Shown here piece after piece: positions 53,755 to 58,859 of a DNA stretch of 64,000 bases. The notes beneath the pieces were generated by a model. The model was not told where the DNA came from, did no database searches, and saw only the letters and a list, made by a program, of their open reading frames with translations. The stretch is taken from positions 62,001-126,000 of the forward strand of contig NZ_PDDM01000003.1 of assembly GCF_002914585.1 (NCBI RefSeq), given 5' to 3'. The position numbers and the translations under genes were made by a program. Source of the DNA: Pseudanabaena sp. BC1403 (GTDB lineage Bacteria > Cyanobacteriota > Cyanobacteriia > Pseudanabaenales > Pseudanabaenaceae). How positions within the stretch are numbered: the first letter of the stretch is position 1; each line of letters begins with the position of its first letter.

Positions 53755-54039
53755 ATGATTACTGAAACAACTCAGGCGCAGATTAATGCAGATTTAAACG
53801 TATTACTGGATCGTGTTGTCAATGATAGAGAGATTATCTATGTCAAAAGTCAAAGTGGAGAAAATGTTGCTTTGATTGCTGCTGACGAATTACAAAGTTT
53901 ATTAGAAACTATGCATCTTCTGCGATCGCCCAAAAATGCAGAACGTCTTTTAAATGCTATTAATCGTGCTAGAACCAGTTCTCATTTTCCTCAGTCACCT
54001 GATGATTTACGCAAGGAGCTAGGACTTGCCAAAGAATAA
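53755..54039 (+). CDS. YefM/Phd-family antitoxin
   Basis: 94 residues. The N-terminal YefM/Phd DNA-binding fold (AQINADLNVLLDRVVNDREII) is followed by VALIAADELQSLLETMHLLRSP, the hallmark block, and a flexible toxin-binding C-terminus. It overlaps the toxin gene by 14 bases and should autorepress the pair. It begins 19 bases after the regulator stop, so the three may share a transcript. Confidence 0.88.
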   Translation: MITETTQAQINADLNVLLDRVVNDREIIYVKSQSGENVALIAADELQSLLETMHLLRSPKNAERLLNAINRARTSSHFPQSPDDLRKELGLAKE

Positions 54040-54307
54040 TTCGCCTTTACCGAGAGAGGCTATTTTCGATCAGGATTTCCGTGTAGATTTAACGCATTGG
54101 ATATCTGTTGATCGCAAGGTTGCTTTGAGAATAATGGATCTGGTTGATGTAGTCATGCGAGATCCATTTAGTGGGATTGGTAAGCCAGAGCCTTTGAAGT
54201 ATCTCGGTTCGGGTATATGGTCTCGCCGTATTAATCAAGAACATCGCTTGGTGTATTTAGTTGAGACTAACTATATTAAATTTTTGCAATGTCGATATCA
54301 CTATTAG
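54026..54307 (+). CDS. YoeB-family mRNA interferase toxin
   Basis: 93 residues, a ribosome-dependent RNase of the RelE superfamily. The C-terminal block is characteristic: GKPEPLKYLGSGIWSRRI, NQEHRLVYLVE and the terminal CRYHY, with catalytic Glu, Arg, His and Tyr positions occupied. The start is a TTG at 54026, inside the antitoxin gene; no ATG fits near it, and a weak start would keep toxin below antitoxin. The N-terminus is slightly longer than usual. Confidence 0.88.
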   Translation: MPKNNSPLPREAIFDQDFRVDLTHWISVDRKVALRIMDLVDVVMRDPFSGIGKPEPLKYLGSGIWSRRINQEHRLVYLVETNYIKFLQCRYHY

Positions 54308-54333: not shown

Positions 54334-54384
54334 CAACACATTTTTTAAAAGTGCTGTAAATAAACACTTTTAAAAAATGTGTTG
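54334..54384 (+). terminator. Terminator behind the toxin gene
   Basis: CAACACATTTTTTAAAAGTG and its complement, 11 bases apart. It is closely related to the palindrome at 47345-47393. Confidence 0.7.
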
Positions 54385-54535: not shown

Positions 54536-56668
54536 ATGCAATGGTTTAAATTTAACTGGCTGAGTATTAAGTCGAAACTGATTGTAATGCTGCTAACCGT
54601 GAGCAGTAGCTCGATCCTCGTGACTGCATATCTGGGTTATCAAAGCGGGAAGTCCAATTTGACCGATCGCGTATTTAATCAGTTAACCAGTGTGCGGGCT
54701 TCTAAGGCTTATCAAATCGAATCCTATTTCAAAACAATTCGCAATCATATTCAAACGCTGAGTAATGATCCTTCAGTGGGAATAGCGATCGCCGAATTTA
54801 CGAATGCATACCGACAGCTTGAAACTGTGCCATTACCAGTCGATGCATCGTCAAAACTTACTGCATATTATCAAAACGAATTTCTGCCCAAGTTAGCGCA
54901 AACAGAGCAAGGTTCTCCTGTTCTGAATTCATTTTTACCTGAAGCGATCGCGAGTAATTATCTGCAATATCATTACATCGCCAATAATTCTAATCCTATT
55001 GGCAAAAAGCATCTCTTAGACAAAGCCAATGATAGTAGTGAATATAGTCGCCTCCACGGTCGTTATCATCCGATCTTTCGGAATATTATTGAGAAATTTG
55101 GTTACTATGATTTGTTCCTAATTGATCCTGATGGCAGAATAGTTTATACAGTTTACAAAGAGACAGATTTTGCTTCTAGTCTCACTGTTGGTGCTTACAA
55201 CGAAAGCAATCTTGCCCGTCTATTTGCCTCAGTACGCCGTTCTAAAGAAAAAGACTATGCGCGGATTATCGATCTGGAGTCTTACGCTCCTTCCTATGGT
55301 GCTCCAGCCGCTTTTATTGCCGCTCCTATTTATAATCAAGATAAATTTATCGGCGTTCTCGCGATTCAAGTACCTGTTGATGAGATTAATAATGTGATGA
55401 CAGGTAATCGCAAATGGGAAGCTGATGGCTTAGGCAAAAGTGGTGAAACCTATCTAGTTGGGCCAGATTACTTAATGCGATCGGTTTCGCGATTTTTGAT
55501 TGAAACACCTGAAGAATACTTAAAAACTCTAGTTGCTTTAGGGGTAAATAACGAAACAATTAATCGGATTCGCCAATACAAGACCTCGGTTTTGGCTCAA
55601 GCTGTCAAGACTACTGCTGTTGAGGAAGCGATGATGGGTAAGCAAGATATTAAAATTATCCGTGATTATCGTGATATTCCTGTCCTGAGTTCTTACTCGC
55701 TGTTACAAATAGAAGGATTAAAATGGGCAATTCTCTCAGAAATAGATTTAGCAGAAGCCTATGCTCCGATTTATGATTTTGAAAGACAGTTAGTAATTTC
55801 GGCAACTTTGCTAATGTTGTTAGTAATTTTATTGGCAATGGTGATGGCTTCTTTATTTGTGAAGCCGATTAATCAATTAATTACCAGCGCTCGTAAAGTG
55901 GCTGCGGGGCAATTGGATGCGATCGCAGTTTTAGAAACTGAAGATGAATTTGGAGAACTCGCGCAATCTTTTAATTTAATGGTGTCGAGTTTGCACGATC
56001 AGACCGAATTAGTCGAAGAAAAAAATCGCGAAAATGAGCAATTGTTGCTAAGCATCTTTCCTGCGGCGATCGCTAAACGTCTAAAACAAGGTGAAAAGAA
56101 TATTGCCGAAAGTGCTTCTAATGTGACGGTGCTATTTTCTGATTTGACGGGCTTCTCGAAGTTGTCAGATTCTCTTACAGCTTACGAAATTGTCAGCATT
56201 CTCAACGATCTAGTCACTAGTTTTGATGAAACCGCCGATCGCTTTGGCATGGAAAAAATCAAAACCATTGGTGACAGCTATATGGCAGTCTGTGGTCTGT
56301 CGGTTCCCTATCTCGACCATGATAAACGAGCGATTGATTTTGCGCTAGAAATGCAAGCGATCGTGCGGAGGTTTAGCCAAGAGCGTGGATTCAAATTGAA
56401 TATCAGCTTAGGGATTAACTCAGGCGATATCGTTGCAGGCATCGTTGGCAGAAATAAATTTATCTATGATGTTTGGGGCGACACGATTAATATTGCTAGC
56501 GCTTTAAAGTCCGCCTGTCCTGAAGGTGCAATTTTAGTTTCTCGAGATATTTACAATCGTCTATGTGACCTCTACGAGTTTGCGCCACTAGCCACCAAAA
56601 TCGAGGATGGGGAAGTTATTTTGGAAGCGTGGCATCTCAAAAGCACGATCAAAATTAAACCAAGTTAA
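54536..56668 (+). CDS. Membrane class III cyclase-like protein, catalytic Arg replaced
   Basis: 710 residues. A first span (about 12-32) and a second (about 422-445) enclose a large Cache-type extracytoplasmic sensor. HAMP (about 445-500) and a class III cyclase domain follow. Metal Asp536 (FSDLTGF), Asp580 and substrate-type Lys576 (EKIKTIGDSY) and Asp649 (VWGDTIN) are present. The transition-state Arg expected four residues after Asn652 is Ala656 (NIASALKS). Activity may be lost, reduced or changed. The MscS channel gene with a cyclic-nucleotide fold starts 16 bases after the stop. Confidence 0.88.
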   Translation: MQWFKFNWLSIKSKLIVMLLTVSSSSILVTAYLGYQSGKSNLTDRVFNQLTSVRASKAYQIESYFKTIRNHIQTLSNDPSVGIAIAEFTNAYRQLETVPLPVDASSKLTAYYQNEFLPKLAQTEQGSPVLNSFLPEAIASNYLQYHYIANNSNPIGKKHLLDKANDSSEYSRLHGRYHPIFRNIIEKFGYYDLFLIDPDGRIVYTVYKETDFASSLTVGAYNESNLARLFASVRRSKEKDYARIIDLESYAPSYGAPAAFIAAPIYNQDKFIGVLAIQVPVDEINNVMTGNRKWEADGLGKSGETYLVGPDYLMRSVSRFLIETPEEYLKTLVALGVNNETINRIRQYKTSVLAQAVKTTAVEEAMMGKQDIKIIRDYRDIPVLSSYSLLQIEGLKWAILSEIDLAEAYAPIYDFERQLVISATLLMLLVILLAMVMASLFVKPINQLITSARKVAAGQLDAIAVLETEDEFGELAQSFNLMVSSLHDQTELVEEKNRENEQLLLSIFPAAIAKRLKQGEKNIAESASNVTVLFSDLTGFSKLSDSLTAYEIVSILNDLVTSFDETADRFGMEKIKTIGDSYMAVCGLSVPYLDHDKRAIDFALEMQAIVRRFSQERGFKLNISLGINSGDIVAGIVGRNKFIYDVWGDTINIASALKSACPEGAILVSRDIYNRLCDLYEFAPLATKIEDGEVILEAWHLKSTIKIKPS

Positions 56669-56683
56669 AAACATGACAAATCC

Positions 56684-58150
56684 ATGTTCTTAACTTCAAT
56701 TGGAAATCTCAACATGTTGCAACCTAGTACCAATCATTTATTTATTTCGGCGATCGCTTTAATTGTCGGATTGGCTCTGTCAGTAATTATTCTGGGCGAA
56801 GTCATCTATCGCCTACAACACCGCCGCCGCCCCCTTGCAGCCACATTACAAGTAGTGCGAAACTTGGTACTACCAATGCTCGCGTTCATGCTGTTTATTC
56901 AGTATGTGTTGCAACGTCCTGCTGATGATGACATTGTTAAAAGTGTCCAAACTCTATTTTGGATTTGTGTACTGCACGCGGCTTTATCGTTACTGAATGC
57001 GATCATTTTTGAGCAAGCAAAAGCTGATACTTGGCGGGCGCGAGTTCCTAAACTCTTAATTGATTTATTTCGATTGTTTTTAGTACTTTTGGGAGTAGCG
57101 ATCGTCCTTGCGAAGGTCTGGAATGCTGATCTCGCAGGATTAGTCACAGCCTTAGGCGTTAGCTCGATTGTGATTGGTTTAGCACTTCAAGATACTCTCG
57201 GCAGTGTCATGTCAGGTATTGCATTGATATTTGAGCGGCCATTTTCTGTTGGTGATTGGCTGGAAGTCGATGATTTGACGGGACAGGTGATAGATATCAA
57301 TTGGCGAGCCGTGCGGTTGCAAACCTTCGAGCGCGAAATGGTGATTATTCCCCACAAGCTGATTGGCAATGCGATTATTCGCAACTTTAGCCGTCCAATC
57401 CCTATTCATGCAGAACGAATTCGTCATGGGTTTTCCTATAATGATCCGCCCAATTTAGCAAAACATGTCCTATTGACTACGGCTCTGGAGACAGAAGGCA
57501 TTTTAAAAGACCCAGAGCCAGAGATTTTTACCATTTCCTACGATGACTTTGCGATTACCTACGAAGTAAAATTTTTTATCGATGACTATAGCAATATTGA
57601 AAGTATTCGCGATCGCTTTATGAGTCGGATCTGGTATGCCGCCCAACGTAACAACCTGACAATTCCTTTTCCCATTCGGACTCTTTATCATTTCAATGGG
57701 CCAACCTTACAGGCTAAGGGAACTACCAAAAAATTTACTGAAAGCCTGCAATCTGTACCTGCCTTTGTACCATTACAAAACCCTGATTCTGTTGCCGATG
57801 GTATTGATTTACAACATTTTGGCGCGGGTGAGAAAGTAATCTGGCAAGGAGTCAACAATAATGCGCTGTATATTGTGATCGCTGGTACGGCGATCATGTC
57901 CGTCAGCGATCGCGAGCATATCGAACATGAGCTATTAACAATCAAGACTGGCGAGTTTTTTGGTGAGATGACGCTTTTTTCTGGTGAGCTTAGTCCGATA
58001 TCAGTAACTGCGATCGAGGATTTAGAAGTGATGATGCTGTCTGCTAATGCTGTTAATCAAATGATCGATCGCCAGCCTAGTTTTGCCCGTGAAATAAGCC
58101 AGATCTTAGAAACTCGCCGTCGTGTGGTAAATACAATTCAAAAATCGTGA
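56684..58150 (+). CDS. MscS-type channel with C-terminal cyclic-nucleotide-binding domain
   Basis: 488 residues (ATG at 56684; ATG at 56714 is an alternative). Four hydrophobic segments lie before the MscS pore and beta domain (VTALGVSSIVIGLALQDTLG, FERPFSVGDWLEVDD). The last 130 residues are a cyclic-nucleotide-binding fold with FFGEMTLFSGELSPISV. Glu428 is kept, but the phosphate-binding Arg position is Ser437. The layout is that of bacterial cyclic-nucleotide-gated MscS channels (bCNG). It follows the cyclase-like gene by 16 bases, so the two are very likely cotranscribed. Confidence 0.9.
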   Translation: MFLTSIGNLNMLQPSTNHLFISAIALIVGLALSVIILGEVIYRLQHRRRPLAATLQVVRNLVLPMLAFMLFIQYVLQRPADDDIVKSVQTLFWICVLHAALSLLNAIIFEQAKADTWRARVPKLLIDLFRLFLVLLGVAIVLAKVWNADLAGLVTALGVSSIVIGLALQDTLGSVMSGIALIFERPFSVGDWLEVDDLTGQVIDINWRAVRLQTFEREMVIIPHKLIGNAIIRNFSRPIPIHAERIRHGFSYNDPPNLAKHVLLTTALETEGILKDPEPEIFTISYDDFAITYEVKFFIDDYSNIESIRDRFMSRIWYAAQRNNLTIPFPIRTLYHFNGPTLQAKGTTKKFTESLQSVPAFVPLQNPDSVADGIDLQHFGAGEKVIWQGVNNNALYIVIAGTAIMSVSDREHIEHELLTIKTGEFFGEMTLFSGELSPISVTAIEDLEVMMLSANAVNQMIDRQPSFAREISQILETRRRVVNTIQKS

Positions 58151-58152
58151 AC

Positions 58153-58197
58153 CCAAGAATTTATTGGCGGTGCAAAGCACCGCCAATAAATTCTTGG
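58153..58197 (+). terminator. Channel gene terminator
   Basis: A perfect 21-bp stem with an AAA loop (core GGCGGTGC/GCACCGCC) beginning three bases after the stop, then TTT. Confidence 0.82.
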
Positions 58198-58680: not shown

Positions 58681-58731
58681 AAAACCAAAAGAGAGTTGCG
58701 GCGCAAAGCGCCGCAATTCTCTTTTGGTTTT
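58681..58731. repeat. Near-perfect 24-bp-stem palindrome
   Basis: AAAACCAAAAGAGA to the GGCGC-AAA-GCGCC centre, one mismatch. Its arms are nearly those of the palindrome at 42680-42732. Confidence 0.8.
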
Positions 58732-58796: not shown

Positions 58797-58859
58797 ATTA
58801 AAAACCCGAACATCTGTACCGCCCGCTACGCGGACGGTACAGATGTTCGGGTTTTTAAT
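58797..58859. terminator. Long palindrome at the marR gene end
   Basis: ATTAAAAACCCGAACATCTG opens an arm of about 29 bp with one mismatch, loop TAC. The T-run on the minus strand follows the marR stop region, so it can terminate marR. Confidence 0.75.

Follow-up and report, generated by a model that had tools for sequence, protein, structure and literature searches.

A conserved cyanobacterial pair of a Cache-HAMP cyclase-like receptor and an MscS-type channel that may signal without a cyclic nucleotide

We analysed two adjacent genes of Pseudanabaena sp. BC1403, one for a cyclase-like receptor and the other for an MscS-type channel that carries a cyclic-nucleotide-binding domain (CNBD) at its C terminus. 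Both lie on the forward strand of a 64,000-nucleotide stretch of contig NZ_PDDM01000003.1 (positions 62,001 to 126,000; hereafter the window, whose numbering is used for all features of the locus). The first gene (54536–56668) has the Pfam architecture dCache-HAMP-Guanylate_cyc and, judged by its open reading frame (ORF) and these domains, encodes a class III cyclase-like receptor of 710 amino acids, probably a pseudocyclase. The channel ORF (56684–58150; 488 amino acids; MS_channel_2nd/3rd and cNMP_binding) follows after a gap of 15 nt in the same frame. Its translation probably starts at ATG 56714 (residue 11) and not at ATG 56684, because GGAAA stands upstream of the former and orthologues begin there; ATG 56684 falls within an AU-rich hairpin of 15 pairs (56662–56696) that also spans the cyclase stop codon.

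The receptor begins with a transmembrane helix, a periplasmic double-Cache-type sensor and a second transmembrane helix (residues 1–436; 54536–55843), assigned from predicted helices and strands (predicted local distance difference test, pLDDT, mostly 80–95) and from a dCache_1 match (E 1.3e-9) that at 38.4 bits lies under Pfam's 45-bit cut-off. A HAMP domain (residues 437–488; 55844–55999; Pfam E 2.2e-12) and a signalling helix linker (residues 489–526; 56000–56113) lead to the class III cyclase domain (residues 527–683; 56114–56584). This domain has the class III fold by Pfam (E 1.8e-42) and by Foldseek (target-normalised TM score 0.8–0.9 on cyclase domains), and its AlphaFold2 model (pLDDT 81) matches Rv1625c, adenylate cyclases and guanylate cyclases. 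The channel has the pore helix and beta domain of MscS (MS_channel_2nd, residues 170–237; 57191–57394; E 1.1e-20) and, at the C terminus of this core, a domain of the CNBD type (residues 377–465; 57812–58078; cNMP_binding E 1.1e-14), which is the layout of bacterial cyclic nucleotide-gated (bCNG) channels. In the AlphaFold2 channel model, five predicted long helices precede the beta domain, and the CNBD has the standard strands, phosphate-cassette helix and C-terminal helices; the nearest structures are YnaI, MscK and MscS. The models support these predicted fold assignments, with low confidence in domain arrangement (channel mean pLDDT 71, predicted TM score 0.35), and are uninformative about assembly.

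Each protein lacks a hallmark arginine, as the initial annotation had claimed. Where class III cyclases have the transition-state Arg, the receptor has Ala656 (codon GCT, 56501–56503): in the alignment to AC9 from the PDB search, the Arg of NIASRMDT faces the Ala of NIASALKS, and in this genome each of the 20 further class III cyclase domains has Arg at this position. Where bCNG channels have the phosphate-binding Arg, the channel has Ser437 (codon AGT, 57992–57994); all seven canonical MscS-CNBD channels compared have Arg there, one of them encoded in the same genome (G000:C6:24993-26342). The metal-binding Asp536 and Asp580, the substrate residues Lys576 and Asp645, and Asn652 are all present in the window cyclase.

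We compared the selection acting on the two genes. The pairwise ratio of nonsynonymous to synonymous rates (dN/dS) among eight close relatives was about 0.06 overall; by domain it was 0.016 in the signalling helix, 0.025 in the cyclase domain and 0.074 in the CNBD. The values for the cyclase domain and CNBD show that the pair is not decaying and is under strong purifying selection; the dN/dS test for relaxed selection was negative, in line with the initial doubt about simple decay. A co-ordinated decay of an old cyclic AMP (cAMP) circuit would account for the missing arginines and for the catalytic residues that vary over the family (see below). It is, however, very improbable, given these ratios, the open reading frames, the fixed Ser437 and the co-retention of both genes over many cyanobacterial families.

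This co-retention is close to complete. Among 340 cyanobacterial genomes the channel is found in 71, the cyclase in 73 and both in 69 (Fisher P ~1e-64, phylogeny not corrected), leaving six genomes with a single gene. In two of these, apparently channel-only, a cut-off cyclase fragment sits beside the channel, in three the genes run off contig ends, and in the last the Cache-HAMP part is fused to an output of the methyl-accepting chemotaxis protein (MCP) type. In this last genome (locus L186, 2770–5235) the same Cache-HAMP sensor is joined to an MCP-type signalling domain, which replaces the cyclase. The two genes lie at most 500 nt apart in 68 of 82 channel copies. At least seven genomes retain both genes although they are not adjacent, being separated by 4.5 kb to 1.7 Mb or placed on different contigs. 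Full-length versions of both proteins were found in the same genomes in 58 relatives. Scanning species genomes yielded 79 loci, and in most of them the cyclase lies directly upstream of the channel. The loci come from cyanobacteria as diverse as Pseudanabaena, Cyanobium, Planktothrix and Nostoc, together with single Acidobacteria, Microbacterium and unclassified members. In the class of Microbacterium, the channel occurs in 14 of 198 genomes as 15 copies (one being the Microbacterium query itself), each with a cyclase upstream. No third conserved partner gene was found near the pair, the top neighbour clusters being shadow ORFs inside it. We conclude that the cyclase and the channel are a conserved two-gene module. 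The suggestion of a sensor-to-channel circuit was thus well founded, in that the module is conserved and strongly selected and a working circuit was rightly suspected.

Several variants of the arrangement were noted. Cyclase-channel-cyclase triples, with a second cyclase-like gene of the family after the channel, occur in L178, L181, L128 and G248:C182; both cyclase copies are degenerate in L178 and L181, and the L128 copy is split between frames. Two loci have stand-alone CNBD ORFs of the Ser family, 150–156 amino acids long and without an intact MscS part (L196, 3488–3955; L197, 5644–6093), which are possibly remnants. In a few loci an ORF that by eye resembles an ammonium transporter lies upstream of the pair (L154, 1384–1887; L170, 1962–3431; L171, 1892–3385).

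The two arginine positions behave in opposite ways. Changes were counted on a tree built from the Cache and HAMP regions, whose root is uncertain and in which several deep rows are long branches. Column 656 requires 30 changes among 71 cyanobacterial cyclases (98th percentile of the cyclase domain) and shows 14 kinds of residue (A, S, Q, G, E, T, L, F, H, K, D, I, N and R). Arg656 is present in 10 of 88 cyclase copies, all from one Nostocales/Microcoleus clade, which keeps the full set D536/K576/D580/D645/N652/R656, and is absent from the other 78. One or both metal Asp are gone in 27 of the 88, and Asp536, Asp580, Lys576 or Asn652 has been lost in several lineages; the retention of metal and substrate residues, as first described, thus holds for the window copy and its genus and not for the family as a whole. 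In contrast, 103 of the 105 family channels have Ser437 (Asn and Thr in the other two), and this column, with one change in 69 (6th percentile), is among the most conserved of the CNBD. Ser437 is constant beside both intact and degenerate cyclases; therefore, the CNBD does not track the catalytic state of its partner. A correlation between loss of channel Glu428 and loss of a metal Asp was not supported (Fisher P 0.10), although the tree contains only 5 independent pairs, a number too small to test it.

This pattern does not fit the 'matched losses' that the initial annotation proposed, as Ser437 is old, family-wide and present both beside Arg656 cyclases and beside cyclases without metal Asp. 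A coupled switch is ruled out by the constancy of Ser437 while 656 varies. Of the expected co-conservation of Ala656 and Ser437 in adjacent pairs, the near-fixed Ser437 stood and the hypervariable 656 did not; the usual Arg is kept by operon homologues of the cyclase in one clade, and by none of the channel. Position 656 is hypervariable and has thus been released from constraint, with no new specificity residue taking the place of Arg. The simplest reading of these sequences, whose order of events we infer, is that the channel gave up the phosphate of the cyclic nucleotide monophosphate (cNMP) early and permanently, and that the catalytic constraint on the cyclase was lost later and repeatedly.

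The actinobacterial pairs are degenerate on both sides. In their cyclases the Asp580 position, beside an invariant Gly-Tyr (canonically GD-Y), reads N, G, Q, S or E. R/T-type residues occupy the place of the substrate Lys, and position 437 of their channels reads Q, A, T, V or N and never Arg; these residues come from a profile-added alignment, in which single columns are less certain.

It might be argued that the cyclase still makes a nucleotide and that the channel reads it despite Ser437; synthesis might be slow, the base might be a different one, or the cyclase might form a heterodimer with a partner that has the Arg. The residues kept in the window and its genus, the full catalytic set of the Nostocales/Microcoleus clade and the 20 other class III domains of the genome that could pair would all agree with this. 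We nevertheless consider it improbable: 30 changes among 14 residues at 656 are unlike a specificity switch, metal Asp has been lost in other lineages with the partner channel unchanged, Ser437 is fixed even beside an intact cyclase, and Asp580 is present in 0 of 15 actinobacterial cyclases (by the same uncertain alignment).

Another possibility is that the CNBD still acts as a switch for a small molecule, one that lacks a cyclic phosphate (a neutral ribose compound such as a nucleoside), and that the cyclase domain binds a nucleoside triphosphate or nucleoside as a sensor or makes the ligand available. The fixed Ser437 would suit such a ligand, as would Glu428, which 96 of the 105 channels retain and whose position binds ribose in canonical CNBDs. 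There is also a precedent in the regulatory subunit of trypanosomatid protein kinase A (PKA), a nucleoside-binding CNBD in which a polar residue replaces the cassette Arg (PMC10959531), as in the family described here. That system, however, is a kinase subunit and not an MscS channel, and its nucleoside-specifying Glu, at the position equivalent to A202, is never found in the 105 channels, where residue 430 is A, T, S, V, G or I. In addition, residue 428 is Val in six channels and Met or Ala in others, and such a ligand alone leaves unexplained why the channel is retained together with an often degenerate cyclase. This explanation thus seems unlikely, though less so than an active cyclase.

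We asked how closely the domains of the two proteins evolve together, estimating the branch lengths of each domain separately on a shared topology (66 pairs, 129 branches). Between the cyclase domain and the CNBD the partial rate correlation was 0.32 (permutation P < 0.0005), the strongest value between the two proteins and similar to those within a protein (0.34 for MscS-CNBD and 0.38 for Cache-HAMP). Cache-CNBD and cyclase-MscS values were near zero. After removal of the longest 10% of branches the correlation was 0.28 (P 0.002). The coupling of the two domains is suggestive. Residues fixed specifically in the family include, within the cyclase domain, C586, L593 and R598 and, within the channel, S437, D446, E470 and E476. 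It is conceivable that the two proteins are regulated together or serve one ecological function without acting on one another, as several genomes have the genes apart and contact between the proteins is putative. Such an arrangement is nevertheless quite improbable given the near-perfect co-occurrence, the rarity of separate retention, the lack of a third conserved gene and the coupled rates of the two cytoplasmic domains.

The best-supported view is that selection on the module no longer maintains cyclic-nucleotide chemistry. We propose, with a probability of roughly 55%, that the pair is a receptor-channel module in which a Cache-HAMP pseudocyclase gates an MscS-type channel by contact with its CNBD, without a cNMP. 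The Cache-HAMP protein would sense something outside the cytoplasm, and a conformational change would be relayed through HAMP and the conserved signalling helix to the class III cyclase fold. This fold would serve mainly as an output or docking domain and would act on the C-terminal CNBD of the MscS/YnaI-like channel, probably by direct contact, thereby changing channel gating. The CNBD would have retained its fold and its fixed Ser437 and would no longer use the phosphate of a cyclic nucleotide. For the window species, contact, gating and the loss of cNMP synthesis and binding are what we infer from these patterns, with direct contact as the leading mechanism. The idea of direct contact or a different nucleotide, put forward at the outset, fared well, contact or an unusual ligand being the likely alternative to cNMP signalling. 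The degeneracy of the actinobacterial pairs on both sides supports the proposal.

Several observations weigh against it. The window cyclase retains both metal Asp, the Lys, the Asp and the Asn, loss of the transition-state Arg lowers and need not abolish cyclase activity, and one clade has the full catalytic set; Glu428 is widely kept in the channel. The rate coupling of the cyclase domain and CNBD falls to 0.17 (P 0.05) without the longest 25% of branches and to 0.20 (P ~0.015) with ranks or logs, and coupling of the Cache and transmembrane parts is nearly as strong. Charge complementarity between cyclase helix 592–619 and CNBD residues 444–485 was unsupported (r −0.11).

The family can be set against several known systems. 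It shares with bCNG channels of the MscS superfamily (for example, Ss-bCNGa of Synechocystis) the MscS core with a C-terminal CNBD, the occurrence in cyanobacteria and, for some canonical members, a neighbouring cyclase gene. It differs in the Ser at the phosphate position, in score (at least 300 versus at most 252 bits) and in having a Cache-HAMP partner rather than a CHASE2-type cyclase. Canonical counterparts, in which a CHASE2-type cyclase with intact residues lies next to an Arg-bearing MscS-CNBD channel, are present in other cyanobacteria (L192, 1405–4655; L201, 1685–5484). The receptor has the fold and domain order of class III cyclases with Cache-HAMP sensors, and sequence similarity to AC9 and Rv1625c; its family is set apart by the frequent absence of the transition-state Arg and of metal Asp. 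The actinobacterial pairs have the layout of Rv2435c-Rv2434c of M. tuberculosis, a cyclase-like gene beside an MscS-CNBD gene, and may be related to it. Pycsar systems also combine an adjacent cyclase fold and CNBD protein, and PycC models match the cyclase domain (E 9e-14), but the matches cover just the shared cyclase and CNBD folds, and here the proteins are a membrane Cache-HAMP receptor and an MscS channel. Adenylate cyclases near a cAMP-regulated MscS channel have been mentioned for marine picocyanobacteria (PMC7522525). Among the papers searched, none matched a mechanosensitive bCNG channel with a cyclase, or a pseudocyclase.

The flanks of the pair have features of their own. Directly upstream of the cyclase gene are genes for a YefM-like antitoxin and a YoeB-like toxin (53755–54307; Pfam E 1.2e-11 and 4e-33), and between the toxin gene and the cyclase is an inverted repeat, CAACACATTTTTTAAAAGTG ... 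CACTTTTAAAAAATGTGTTG (54337–54384). Just 3′ of the channel lie three long palindromes, perfect or nearly so, whose stems have 20 pairs (58153–58197, 58685–58727 and 58805–58851), in a region with 18 terminator-like sites versus 4.4 in shuffles; they are possibly a dispersed repeat family or terminators.

MscS-CNBD channels beside cyclase-like genes are readily taken for cAMP-gated channels and their adenylate cyclase. The family suggests that this is wrong for a widespread set of pairs, which are under strong selection, though apparently not for cyclic-nucleotide chemistry. An ancestral messenger pair of a cyclase and a CNBD channel may have been rewired to direct protein signalling in Cyanobacteria, Actinomycetota and Acidobacteriota, the cyclase fold docking and the CNBD receiving, a tentative proposal to which we give slightly less than even odds. 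If contact is indeed the mechanism, the family would illustrate how a second-messenger circuit can lose its messenger, and it opens to experiment what CNBDs and cyclase folds can do without nucleotides.

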